This document shows positions 25,128 to 53,353 of a stretch of DNA of 64,000 nt, one piece after another. Source of the DNA: Lachnospiraceae bacterium (lineage in GTDB: Bacteria > Bacillota > Clostridia > Lachnospirales > Lachnospiraceae); the NCBI GenBank assembly GCA_017620255.1, contig JAFZQU010000028.1:310001-374000 (forward strand). The letters run 5' to 3'. The notes beneath the pieces were generated by a model. It was not told the DNA's origin. It saw only the letters and a program-made list of their open reading frames with translations, and did no database searches. How positions within the stretch are numbered: position 1 is the stretch's first letter; the number at the start of each line of letters is the position of its first letter. The position numbers were made by a program, and so were the translations under genes.

Positions 25128-25178
25128 CAAATGGCGCCGGCGGATCAGCATTTCTCGGGATCCTGCCGGCACCCTTTG
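25128..25178 (-). promoter_or_regulatory. Nitrogen leader element, glnA copy
   Basis: Minus strand: GCAAAGG, then GGTGCCGGC paired with GCCGGCGCC (9 bp), an inner stem GGATC/GATCC with a 12-base loop, then A, TTTG (able to pair with CAAA) and TTTTAT. It ends about 50 bases before the glnA start codon. It shares the CAAAGG opening and hairpin architecture with six other leaders in the window but has the largest internal loop. Confidence 0.72.
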
Positions 25179-25198
25179 CATATGCATTCCTATGCAAA
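25175..25198 (-). repeat. Inverted repeat at the glnA transcription start
   Basis: TTTGCATA and TATGCAAA form a perfect 8-bp inverted repeat with an 8-base spacer, directly downstream of the -10 box. Its 3' arm contains the GCAAA that opens the leader element, so in RNA it would compete with the leader hairpin; in DNA it could be an operator. Confidence 0.65.
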
Positions 25199-25200
25199 TG

Positions 25201-25229
25201 ATTTTAATATAATCTTATGAATTAAACAA
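25201..25229 (-). promoter_or_regulatory. Promoter of the glnA operon
   Basis: Minus-strand TTGTTT (25224-25229, overlapping the gdhA stop codon), 17-bp spacer, TAAAAT (25201-25206). Moderate match to a sigma-A promoter. Confidence 0.6.
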
Positions 25230-26568
25230 TGCCCTGTGCCTTCATGGCATCCGCTACTTTTAAGAAACCTGCGATGTTGGCACCTGCCACATAATCGCCT
25301 TCCTTACCGTATTTCTTTGCGGCATCATCCAGGTTGTGGAAGATGTTTACCATGATGTCTTTGAGCTTCTTGTCCACTTCTTCGAATGTCCAGGACAGTC
25401 TCTCGGAGTTCTGGCTCATCTCCAGTGCGCTTGTAGCCACGCCGCCGGCATTGGCTGCCTTGCCCGGTACGAAGTAAACTTTGTTCTCCTGGAAATACTG
25501 TGTAGCTTCCAGTGTGGTCGGCATATTTGCGCCTTCGCAGACTGCGATCACGCCGTTTGCGACCAGTTTCTTTGCGTCTTCCAGATCCAGCTCGTTCTGT
25601 GTTGCGCAGGGAAGTGCGATGTCAACCTTGATCTCCCACTGGTTGGTGCCTTCCGTCTTCTTGTCATGATACTGTGCACTCGGTCTTGCAGCTGCATACT
25701 CGGTAAGACGTGCTCTCTTCACCTCTTTGATTTCCTTTAAGAGTGCCACATCAATGCCTTCGGGATCATAGATCCAGCCTGTGGAATCGGAACATGTAAC
25801 AGGCTTTGCACCAAGCTGCTGTGCTTTCTGGATCGCATAGATCGCAACGTTACCGGAACCGGATACCGCACAGGTCTTGCCCTTGATATCCACACCGTTG
25901 CTCTTTAACATCTCTTCCGTCATATACAGAAGGCCGTAACCCGTTGCTTCCGTACGTGCGAGCGAACCGCCGTAGGATAAGCCTTTACCTGTCAGTACGC
26001 CTTCGTATAAGCCGGTCAGTCTCTTGTACTGGCCGTACATAAAGCCGATCTCTCTTGCGCCTGTACCGATATCACCGGCCGGTACGTCTGTGTCGGCGCC
26101 GATATATTTGAACAATTCCGTCATAAAGCTCTGGCAGAAGGCCATTACTTCACGGTCTGATTTTCCCTTCGGGTCAAAATCGGAACCGCCCTTGCCGCCG
26201 CCGATCGGAAGACCTGTTAAGGAATTCTTGAAGATCTGCTCGAAACCTAAGAATTTGATGATACCCAGGTTTACCGACGGGTGCAGTCTCAGACCGCCTT
26301 TGTAAGGACCGATCGCGGAATTGAACTGGATACGCATTGCATTGTTAACCTGAACCTGACCCTTGTCATCCACCCAGGGAACACGGAACAGCACCTGGCG
26401 CTCCGGTGTGGTCAGTCTCTCGAGAAGTGCATCCTTTCTGTACTCCTCTTCGTTTTCTTCGATCACGACGCGCAGGGATTCAAGAACCTCTTTTACCGCC
26501 TGATGGAATTCCGGCTGCGCGGGATTCTGCGCTACGACGCGATCATACACTTCATCTACATACGACAT
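25222..26568 (-). CDS. gdhA: NADP-type glutamate dehydrogenase
   Basis: The 448-residue hexameric-type enzyme reductively aminates 2-oxoglutarate with ammonia. Visible motifs are [31 protein letters not shown] (catalytic Lys), [16 protein letters not shown] and the nucleotide-binding GSGNVAIYA (about 240). Length matches bacterial GdhA. GAGGAGG lies eight bases before ATG 26568. It is transcribed from its own promoter (26663-26691) through a leader hairpin, between the pyrG-gltB-gltD unit and glnA. High-ammonia assimilation by GdhA and low-ammonia assimilation by GlnA/GltBD are thus encoded side by side. Confidence 0.97.
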
Positions 26569-51900: not shown

Positions 51901-52181
51901 GTCTGTCCGCCGATCCCGGGTAAGATCGCATCCGGTCTCTCTTTCCTGACGATCTTGGCAAGATATTCAAGCGTCAGCGGTTCCATGTAAACCTTGTCCG
52001 CAACGGTCGTATCCGTCATGATCGTGGCCGGGTTTGAGTTACACAGAATGACCTCGTACCCTTCCTCTTTCAGCGCCAGGCAGGCCTGCGTCCCCGCATA
52101 GTCGAATTCCGCCGCCTGTCCGATCACGATCGGCCCCGAGCCGATCACCATGATCCGTTTAAGATCTTCTCTCTTCGGCAT
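48996..52181 (-). CDS. carB: Carbamoyl-phosphate synthase large subunit
   Basis: The 1061-residue enzyme makes carbamoyl phosphate for pyrimidine and arginine synthesis. It shows the expected internal duplication: two ATP-grasp halves starting RIMVIGSGPIVIGQAAEFDY and IIVLGSGPIRIGQGVEFDY, with VNPRVSRSSALASKASGYPIA and its counterpart VNPRSSRTVPFLSKATGWQLA, and a C-terminal methylglyoxal-synthase-like allosteric domain (about 930-1061). The start lies 23 bases inside the carA reading frame, so translation is coupled. Control should follow the carA leader element. Confidence 0.98.
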   Translation of the reverse strand: MPKREDLKRIMVIGSGPIVIGQAAEFDYAGTQACLALKEEGYEVILCNSNPATIMTDTTVADKVYMEPLTLEYLAKIVRKERPDAILPGIGGQTGLNLAMQLARKGVLNECRVELLGTAIESIEQAEDRELFKEMCQSIGEPILPSEAVSSQEEGLLAAEKIGYPVVIRPAFTLGGTGGGFADCREECEHILKNALILSPVHQALIEKSVRGYKEIEYEVMRDANDTAITICNMENIDPVGIHTGDSIVVCPSQTLTNKEYHMLRDSALKIIRALKIEGGCNVQFALDPRSFQYYLIEVNPRVSRSSALASKASGYPIARVSAKISVGYRLDEIMLANTPASFEPSLDYVVSKLPRFPFDKFTDASNALGTQMKATGEVMSVGRTMEESLLKGIRSLETGVFHLHYSLFDEMETDRIMTYIEEGRDDRIYAIAELLRRQISVNMIASVTGIDALYIRAFSHIVEMEQTLLAHMGERPYLYEAKRMGFSDEEIAKLWQTSAREIFLQRMEAGIRPVYKMIDSCASEFDSYIPYFYSTYEGENESVSEKKEKIIVLGSGPIRIGQGVEFDYSTVHAVKTIRSLGYEAIIINNNPETVSTDYTTADKLYFEPLTIEDVMNVITHENPKGVIVTLGGQTAVNLAEPLKEYGATIIGTDCDAIERAENRDAFERVLLDLKIPQPKGEAVTSIEEGIQVAEKIGYPVLVRPSFVLGGRAMQIVSKETELRNYLKTAVEIDASKPVLVDHYIRGKEVEIDAVCDGKDVFVPGIMELVERTGVHSGDSISVYPPYSISEQVKEKILSDADALGKAIGIVGLFNIQFIVDEDDQVYIIEVNPRSSRTVPFLSKATGWQLADIATKVMLGISLKEQGIDPKQDVPPLRWYVKVPAFSFAKLKGMDSYLSPEMKSTGEAIGYDEKLHRAMYKALIASGIRLQNYGTVMVTLADEDKEEALPLVKRFYDLGFNIEATVGSAMFLKEHGIRTRIRRKLSEGSDEILQSIRAGYVSYVINTRAIKSGVHYEDGVAIRQCARENNITMFTSLDTVRVLLDVLEELTITVSTLDPPK

Positions 52182-53277
52182 AGGGATCCTCTCCTTTCAT
52201 GCATTGTACAAAACGCGAAAACAGGTATTTGGAATCCTGCGGTCCCGGCGCGCTTTCCGGATGATACTGCACGGAAAAGGCGGCGTCGTTCTTATGGCAG
52301 ATGCCTTCAACCGTATGGTCAAGCAGGTTTTCATGCGTGACCGTAAGGCCTGTGCCGGCAAGGCTGTCCAGTGCGACCGCATAGGAGTGATTTTGCGATG
52401 TGATCTCGATCTTATCCGTCAACAGGTTCTTCACCGGGTGGTTTCCGCCCCTGTGACCGAATTTCAGTTTGTAGGTTTTGGCCCCGTAGGAAAGCGCTAA
52501 GATCTGATGCCCCAAACAGATCCCGAAGATCGGACAGAATCCGTGCAGGGTCCTGACCGTTTCGATCGTCTCCGGCACATCCGTCGGATCGCCCGGCCCG
52601 TTTGATAAAAAGATCCCGTCCGGCTTCAGATCCCGGATCGTATCGGCACTGACATTGTATGGCAGGATCGTTACCCTGCAGCCGAGCGCATTGAGCGAGC
52701 GCACGATGTTTTCTTTCATACCGCAGTCGATCGCAGCAACGTGCCATTTCTCTTCCGGTATGCTTTCCGATACACGGATCTCCTTTGTGCTGACGCGGCT
52801 GACCTGGTCATGCGCGTAATCCCAGTTTCGAAGGATGGCTGCCCCCTCTTCCGAACTCATGGAAGCATCCGCAAGCAGCGCCTTACAGCTGCCGTGATCG
52901 CGGATCCTGCGCGTGATCTCCCTGGTGTCTACATTGCTGATCCCTGCAATGTCGTAGGTTTCCATACAGGCCGAAAGCGTCTCCCTGCTTCTGAAATTCG
53001 AGGGTTCCTCTGTGTAGGACCGTACGATCAGCGCACCGGTCGTCGGGATCTTTGTTTCAAAATCATCCGCGTTGATCCCGTAATTGCCGATCAGGGGATA
53101 GGTCATCACGACGGCCTGGTCCGTATAGGACGGGTCTGAGAGTATTTCCTGATAGCCGACCATCGATGTGTTGAAAACAAGCTCCAGCTTCTTTTCACGC
53201 AGGCTTCCGAACCCGTACCCGGGATAGACACTGCCGTCCTCAAGGATCAGTTTTCTCTTCACAAGGTCCTGTTTCAT
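52159..53277 (-). CDS. carA: Carbamoyl-phosphate synthase small subunit
   Basis: The 372-residue subunit supplies ammonia from glutamine to CarB. The N-terminal small domain starts KLILEDGSVYPGYGFGS; the class I glutaminase has FGICLGHQILALSYG (nucleophile Cys, about 247) and SVQYHPESAPGPQ (His-Glu). Length is normal. A strong AGAAGGAGAG ribosome site precedes ATG 53277. It overlaps carB by 23 bp. It follows purB by 104 bp that contain a leader element but no obvious promoter, so it may be read from the purC promoter. Confidence 0.98.
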   Translation of the reverse strand: MKQDLVKRKLILEDGSVYPGYGFGSLREKKLELVFNTSMVGYQEILSDPSYTDQAVVMTYPLIGNYGINADDFETKIPTTGALIVRSYTEEPSNFRSRETLSACMETYDIAGISNVDTREITRRIRDHGSCKALLADASMSSEEGAAILRNWDYAHDQVSRVSTKEIRVSESIPEEKWHVAAIDCGMKENIVRSLNALGCRVTILPYNVSADTIRDLKPDGIFLSNGPGDPTDVPETIETVRTLHGFCPIFGICLGHQILALSYGAKTYKLKFGHRGGNHPVKNLLTDKIEITSQNHSYAVALDSLAGTGLTVTHENLLDHTVEGICHKNDAAFSVQYHPESAPGPQDSKYLFSRFVQCMKGEDPYAEERRS

Positions 53278-53314
53278 TGATCTCTCCTTCTCATCTGCCC
53301 CGTACAGGCAGCTA

Positions 53315-53353
53315 TAAAAATAGGCACTTTAACCAATGTTAAAGCGCCTTTGC
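53315..53353 (-). promoter_or_regulatory. Nitrogen leader element, carA copy
   Basis: Minus strand: GCAAAGGCGCTTTAAC, tetraloop ATTG, GTTAAAGTGCC (11-bp stem), then TATTTTTATAGC. It ends 38 bases before the carA ATG, in the purB-carA gap. Confidence 0.77.

Follow-up and report, generated by a model that had tools for sequence, protein, structure and literature searches.

A stretch of 64,000 nucleotides from a Lachnospiraceae bacterium (GenBank assembly GCA_017620255.1, contig JAFZQU010000028.1, positions 310,001 to 374,000; hereafter the window) carries on its minus strand a series of genes for ammonia and glutamine metabolism whose leaders share a small RNA element, together with a gene for an ANTAR-domain protein. 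An earlier note on this DNA had described seven copies of a leader hairpin upstream of these genes. Six of them, in the gdhA, pyrG, amt, GSIII, asnB and carA leaders, were confirmed as hairpins with a six-base loop (hexaloop) overlapping a terminator; the glnA copy turned out to be degenerate, and a second copy before pyrG had been missed. The elements are listed below, with the loop in square brackets and the score against the covariance model R1 where there was a match.

25128..25178, minus strand: glnA leader, CAAAGGG and a terminator, hexaloop stem not formed, degenerate copy
26609..26656, minus strand: gdhA leader, GAC[AAAGGC]GTC hexaloop over a terminator, 25.0 bits
34470..34513, minus strand: pyrG leader, copy b, CGGAC[AAAGGC]GTCCG and a terminator, 35.9 bits
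34530..34570, minus strand: pyrG leader, copy a, TGAC[AAGGGT]GTCG and its own terminator, 28.1 bits
44999..45040, minus strand: amt leader, AATTGC[AAAGGC]GCAATT and a terminator, 39.9 bits
47220..47262, minus strand: GSIII leader, AAGC[AAAGGC]GCTT and a terminator with two mismatches, 36.7 bits
48893..48936, minus strand: asnB leader, AAAGC[AAAGGC]GCTTT and a terminator, 48.6 bits
53312..53357, minus strand: carA leader, TAAAGC[AAAGGC]GCTTTA and a terminator, 45.5 bits

The common sequence G(C/A)CAAAGG(C/G)G is the closing base and the loop of a small hairpin, whose six-base loop begins with A (A1) and has G as its fourth base (G4). In the six confirmed leaders the loop is AAAGGC, or AAGGGT in one copy, and is closed by a stem of 3–6 pairs. 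The loop and the 3' arm of this hairpin double as the 5' arm of a longer stem, which is followed by a T-rich run. A pairing check found the A1/G4 hexaloop in seven of the eight window elements, and these seven have the hexaloop as Ramesh et al. 2012 define it (A1, G4 and a stem of at least 3 bp). The pyrG leader consists of two complete elements in tandem (34530–34570 and 34470–34513). A strict scan of the window (hexaloop A..GG., a stem of at least 3 bp, terminator score of at least 10) gave seven matches, which are carA, asnB, amt, both pyrG copies, gdhA and one at 17558 on the minus strand, whereas 30 second-order Markov controls gave a mean of 0.67. The match at 17558 is a lone stray and probably due to chance. 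The GSIII terminator fails the scripted test, having two adjacent mismatches in its stem and a U-tract that is short and interrupted; nevertheless, RNAfold draws the stem and R1 matches the element. A looser hexaloop-terminator scan was dropped as uninformative, as it returned 30 matches in the window and 10–27 in 20 Markov controls.

The genes around the elements are as follows.

23235..23771, minus strand: ANTAR-domain protein of 178 aa, PF03861 (62.8 bits, residues 125–174), NitR-like antiterminator
23784..25076, minus strand: glnA, PF00120 and PF03951, directly 5' of the ANTAR gene
25222..26568, minus strand: gdhA, PF00208 and PF02812
26708..34456, minus strand: pyrG-gltB-gltD, PF06418, PF00310/PF01645 and PF07992/PF14691, 3' of the tandem leader
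41768..44970, minus strand: amt (PII-fused) and a purF-like gene, PF00909 and PF00543 for amt
45092..47215, minus strand: GSIII glutamine synthetase, PF12437 and PF18318
47295..48869, minus strand: asnB, PF00733 and PF13537
48996..53277, minus strand: carA (PF00988, PF00117) and an open reading frame (ORF) of 1061 aa

The gene names given in the earlier note are thus borne out by Pfam for those genes that were scanned; the 1061-aa ORF is called carB by its position and length only, and the purF-like gene matches PF13537 above the cut-off and PF00156 slightly below it. The spacing of 20–55 nt between element and start codon, likewise claimed in the note, was measured as 20–51 nt from its coordinates. 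The amt ORF (43210–44970) holds PF00909 and PF00543 together and so has a C-terminal PII domain, a possible sensor near the regulon. Immediately 5' of the pyrG leader and in the same orientation, an ORF of 518 aa (34625–36181) has no Pfam match.

The ORF of the ANTAR-domain protein begins 12 nt 3' of glnA; it is the sole PF03861 match across the whole genome and scores far above the Pfam cut-off of 27.3 bits. A profile of 17 relatives matches Rv1626, EutV, NasR and AmiR in the PDB. The predicted structure (mean predicted local distance difference test score 76.5, predicted template modelling score 0.50) has as its best Foldseek match the EutV-RNA structure 6ww6 (E 2.2e-7, template modelling score 0.44). 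Its N-terminal fold is receiver-like and has no phospho-acceptor Asp: EutV Asp54 aligns with Thr54, and T, G or S stands at this position in 17 of 17 alignment rows, in which, therefore, the receiver with acceptor Asp of an EutV-type two-component system was not found. As the acceptor Asp is replaced by Thr, phosphorylation at the usual site is unlikely, and to judge from the alignment the protein would not be controlled in that way. Reported loop contacts of EutV are Tyr164 and Met172, which stack on G4 and plug the loop (PMC8934654); the two residues align with Tyr152 and Met160 of the window protein, in which the EutV contact residue Lys143 is conserved as well.

The RNA structure was analysed by means of R1, a model made from 14 elements in which the terminator pairs were specified and the hexaloop pairs left out; six window elements were in its training set, gdhA and dapL were not, and its flanking columns still hold weak sequence preferences. 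The set used for covariation comprised 104 R1 matches (100 distinct) in 89 loci of relatives, including 10 opposite-strand matches of palindromic terminators that were retained in the count. Among the 100 distinct matches, 85.0% of the 400 cells of the hexaloop stem were paired, compared with 31.5–51.3% in slid versions of the stem. The stem showed 82 double changes, compared with 35.0 in shuffles, and none of 500 shuffles reached 82. Coarser measures were weaker: the number of pairs with a double change was as high in 139 of 500 shuffles, and the number of pair types in 15 of 500. The terminator stem of the same alignment was 95.5% paired, with 263 double changes against 61.9 in shuffles. Both stems covary above shuffles, and alignment columns 13–16 pair in both of them, as expected for a terminator/antiterminator switch. 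Pair counts from another alignment, A2, were set aside as partly circular, since A2 had been chosen partly by the hexaloop rule; the R1-based test is less so. The conserved part spans about 16 nt, with little invariant sequence beyond the hexaloop.

Folding energies were calculated for a set of 113 elements, which included the dapL leader and left out the window copies. The terminator fold lay below the best fold that holds the hexaloop in 112 of the 113 elements (medians −19.8 and −6.8 kcal/mol, respectively). Covariation and energies together indicate that the hexaloop overlaps and excludes an intrinsic terminator, which is the arrangement required by Ramesh et al. 2012. Since the hexaloop fold is less stable than the best fold overall, read-through requires that something hold the hairpin.

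In the whole genome, where 150 of 926 first-look candidates were scored with R1, the list comprised 12 matches. The top five were the asnB, carA, amt, GSIII and pyrG copy b elements of the window, followed by the leader of dapL on another contig (G000:C13:132321), pyrG copy a, the opposite strand of the dapL site, gdhA and three weak matches; the gdhA leader was thus recovered though it lay outside the training set. The ANTAR gene and the element tend to occur together. Among 41 genomes (25 of the same genus and 16 of other families of the order), an R1 match with E ≤0.01 was found in 31 and an ANTAR match in 31: both in 27, the RNA only in 4, ANTAR only in 4 and neither in 6 (p 0.006). Among 246 genomes of the order, with 25 candidates per genome scored in the RNA search, the corresponding numbers were 111, 20, 55 and 60 (Fisher p 5e-10).

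We examined 89 matches in relatives, leaving out weaker ones, opposite-strand duplicates and the glnA leaders of loci L004, L012 and L026. The hexaloop-terminator test was passed by 70 of them, and 52 of these 70 sit 5' of relatives of this genome's nitrogen genes (GSIII 13, amt 8, asnB 7, glnA 6, purA 6, purF-like 3, dapL 2, carA 2, gdhA 2, guaA 1, pyrG 1, gltB 1). The proteins of this genome were the sole references for naming, a procedure that favours nitrogen genes. These references left 18 elements unnamed, and the genes following 8 of them were scanned with Pfam: they encode a diaminopimelate epimerase, a carbon-nitrogen hydrolase, an aminotransferase, a relative of ornithine cyclodeaminase, two solute-binding proteins, one protein without a Pfam match and one ATP-grasp protein, an apparent false match. 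The GSIII leaders of two relatives, L072 (1501–1603) and L077 (1501–1597), carry tandem elements like those before pyrG in the window. A near-identical hexaloop-terminator-like sequence occurs in L068 (1501–1604), L124 (1501–1605) and L125 (301–353), twice in genome G024, where no ANTAR gene was found, and a single time in G022; its appearance is that of a repeat, not of a leader.

Of 583 ANTAR loci, the best 80 named ones were kept. In 80 of these 80, glnA lies directly upstream on the same strand, 10–333 nt from the ANTAR match. About 32 of the 80 have Lachnospiraceae in their titles; others include Muricomes, Anaerocolumna, Blautia and Lachnoclostridium, and the remaining titles name an order or class only, apart from two metagenome-assembled genomes of Bacteroides and Paenibacillaceae. 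Under the strict test, the element is present in 42 of the 78 named glnA leaders with the glnA start in reach.

From these results, a hypothesis regarding the mechanism may be put forward: the leaders are likely single-hexaloop ANTAR antiterminators held by the ANTAR protein encoded next to glnA. An A1/G4 hexaloop would form where each transcript is predicted to begin, one of its arms being common to the predicted intrinsic terminator. By binding the loop, the ANTAR protein would keep the hairpin in place and let RNA polymerase continue into the nitrogen gene; without the protein, the terminator is predicted to win because its folding energy is far lower. By analogy with NitR, of which the review PMC6316151 says so, the protein may be active when nitrogen or glutamine is short, and the signal could reach it through a partner, for instance GlnA or the PII domain linked to Amt. 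Binding and read-through, like the signal and the direction of regulation, are our inferences. The regulon mixes glutamine-making and glutamine-using genes, a combination that a simple response to nitrogen limitation alone does not explain. The support, all of it drawn from sequences, consists of the hexaloop, its overlap with the terminator, the dual covariation, the single ANTAR gene and the recurrence of the element before nitrogen genes of relatives. These data support the suggestion in the earlier note that an attenuator or an RNA bound by protein defines a nitrogen regulon. The note's view that the element was undescribed and belonged to no known family is not: the loop rule, the overlap with the terminator and the single ANTAR gene beside glnA place the leader with ANTAR antitermination (PMC3369931), and it is the use of one hexaloop instead of two that looks undescribed.

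Several observations weigh against this hypothesis. The flanks of the CAAAGGG in the window glnA leader are unpaired, so that this leader fails the hexaloop test, and R1 does not match it; it is either degenerate or different. The glnA leader of L003, the nearest relative by ANTAR identity, fails the hexaloop test too, as do 36 of the 78 named glnA leaders under the strict test. The strict test was also failed by 19 of the 89 matches in relatives, two of which (L115 and L124) were wrongly sliced at contig ends. Among the 131 RNA-positive genomes of the order, 20 have no ANTAR match, with 25 candidates per genome scored, and the co-occurrence statistic ignores kinship. Five positions corresponding to the EutV RNA-contact residues Arg142, Lys147, Arg168, Arg175 and Arg177 are Gln, Glu, Gln, Gly and Thr in the window protein. 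Finally, EutV requires both hairpins in vivo (PMC3369931), and hexaloops resembling a first hairpin (P1-like) occur within linker range of the elements somewhat above chance, in 12 of the 113 elements compared with 6.8 in shuffles, or in 7 compared with 2.5 when a stem of at least 4 bp is required.

The last two points bear on the rival that survives best, namely that the leaders are canonical dual-hexaloop ANTAR targets whose first hairpin is degenerate or has another loop. The Firmicutes ANTAR targets described at terminators are dual (PMC3369931, PMC8164766), and in the amt leader a strong hairpin without a hexaloop stands immediately 5' of the element. We nevertheless consider this explanation unlikely on account of the promoters, which were searched for before 118 distinct elements (from relatives, the own genome and the named glnA leaders) with the end of the −10 box at most 30 nt from the hairpin. 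A promoter score of at least 9 out of 12.5 was reached in 95 of the 118, compared with a mean of 10 and a maximum of 18 for shuffled upstream sequences, and the median distance from the −10 box to the hairpin was 8 nt in these 95 leaders. If the start of transcription is placed some 7 nt past the −10 box, a first hairpin and its linker would need 22 nt up to the third pair below the loop, and this distance is shorter than 22 nt in 93 of the 95 leaders. As the predicted distance leaves no room for it, a first (recruitment) hairpin is presumably not needed.

In the window, asnB and pyrG copy a pass the promoter test, as does dapL elsewhere in the genome; the asnB hairpin begins 10 nt past the −10 box of the promoter TTGACA-17-TATAGT. 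The gdhA leader has TTGCAT-17-TATGAT six nt before the hairpin, which is below the threshold, and no promoter reaching the threshold was found for the amt, GSIII and carA leaders. Of the 13 P1-like matches in the 118-element set, 10 start within the predicted −10 region or before it, and the other 3 belong to leaders for which no promoter was predicted; not one is clearly downstream of that region. The two-hairpin arrangement of Ramesh et al. 2012 was accordingly not found in these leaders, given the lack of room in 93 of 95 and P1-like matches that are somewhat above chance in number and mostly within or before the −10 region, even though a few of them may be true dual motifs. A second hexaloop downstream of the first is present in 23 of 118 elements, compared with 10.7 in shuffles, an excess of which tandem elements and the loops of palindromic terminators could be the source.

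The same scan does detect a textbook dual motif at an eut-type ANTAR locus of the order (L217/L231, one locus), though clearly in only one of nine eut-type stretches; the matches in L218 (among 12 loci) and L223 were judged to be due to chance. This dual-hexaloop leader lies at about 2783 of L231, on the reverse strand, near EutP/ANTAR genes in genome G037. A search with the EutP family gave mostly weak matches to other GTPase-like proteins. G037 has two ANTAR genes, and both leader architectures may exist in one order.

A ligand-binding riboswitch, for example one for glutamine, in which the hairpin itself would sense the ligand without any protein, had also been suggested in the earlier note, and it would suit a switch that overlaps a terminator and genes that share one metabolite. 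It is very improbable for an element of which about 16 nt are conserved, with little invariant outside the hexaloop, and whose presence tracks ANTAR genes. No family of Rfam, glutamine riboswitches included, matched anywhere in the window at gathering thresholds, and when the asnB leader was scanned permissively, all matches fell far short of the family thresholds.

That the elements simply terminate upstream genes or attenuate constitutively, and are alike by chance or local duplication, is hardly credible either: seven sound elements and the glnA copy do lie within one 28-kb stretch, where local copying could spread a terminator, and the window amt, GSIII and carA elements have no clear promoter before them, but 95 of 118 elements stand just downstream of a predicted promoter, the 5' arm of the hexaloop, which is outside the terminator, covaries with the shared arm, and in relatives, elements at separate loci precede genes of the same kinds.

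Single-hexaloop antitermination by the glnA-linked ANTAR protein thus remains our preferred reading. A broader proposition seems to us rather likely, though less firmly so: that Lachnospiraceae have a family-wide nitrogen regulon built on single-hexaloop antiterminators at position +1, in which the recruitment hairpin is dispensable when the antitermination hairpin emerges first, and in which one non-phosphorylatable ANTAR protein of the glnA operon sets glutamine metabolism. Lachnospiraceae are major bacteria of the gut and rumen, and we found little in the open literature on how they control nitrogen assimilation. If the proposition is true, control of ammonia uptake, glutamine synthetases, glutamate synthase (GOGAT), glutamate dehydrogenase (GDH) and several glutamine-using enzymes lies with a single ANTAR protein and a hairpin of 16 nt.

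The known counterpart is likely NitR of Clostridium saccharobutylicum, with which the protein was compared by description only. NitR of strain NCP262 (Stutz et al. 2007) is an ANTAR protein that, according to a review, induces GS/GOGAT on nitrogen limitation via antitermination (PMC6316151). It is reported for GS/GOGAT, whereas the elements described here also precede amt, GSIII, asnB, carA, gdhA, pyrG and dapL, and purA in relatives. In C. thermocellum, expression of the ANTAR gene Clo1313_2030 follows the cluster of glutamine synthetase and glutamate synthase genes, and an antiterminator role was suggested (PMC4676874); the arrangement beside glutamine synthetase genes is like that of the window, but the available part of the report describes no RNA element. 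A description of a Lachnospiraceae or glnA ANTAR leader was not found in the open literature, most subscription papers being outside this coverage.

With the targets of EutV (eut), NasR (nasF) and AmiR (amiE) the leaders have in common the A1/G4 hexaloop on a stem of at least 3 bp, a 3' arm that lies in a terminator, nitrogen genes and an ANTAR protein in the genome (PMC3369931). Unlike them, they have one hexaloop at the predicted start of the transcript, whereas Firmicutes and proteobacterial targets are described with two (PMC3369931, PMC8164766), joined by a linker of 5–12 nt in the E. faecalis eut leaders (PMC3369931). For EutV, deletion of the first hairpin (P1) ablated induction, and linkers of 3 or 14 nt cut it drastically (PMC3369931). 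Binding of NasR to a lone hairpin is weaker (PMC7496416); EutV has similar affinities for P1 and P2 in isolation (PMC8934654). According to Walshe et al. 2022, a single hexaloop makes up the minimal motif for ANTAR binding, but in a dual motif each hexaloop needs to be contacted to prevent termination; they consider that there may be sites with one hexaloop, citing an extra hexaloop in EutX RNA and mycobacterial RNAs that are not always dual, and leave the extent of single-hexaloop use open (PMC8934654). Single sites were expected by these authors where no time limit is set by a transcribing polymerase, whereas the leaders described here sit on terminators. If our reading is right, they are natural test cases for the question, left open in that work, of whether a single hexaloop is sufficient on a moving polymerase. 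The class is already known; single-hexaloop antitermination at the transcript start and the breadth of the regulon appear to be new.

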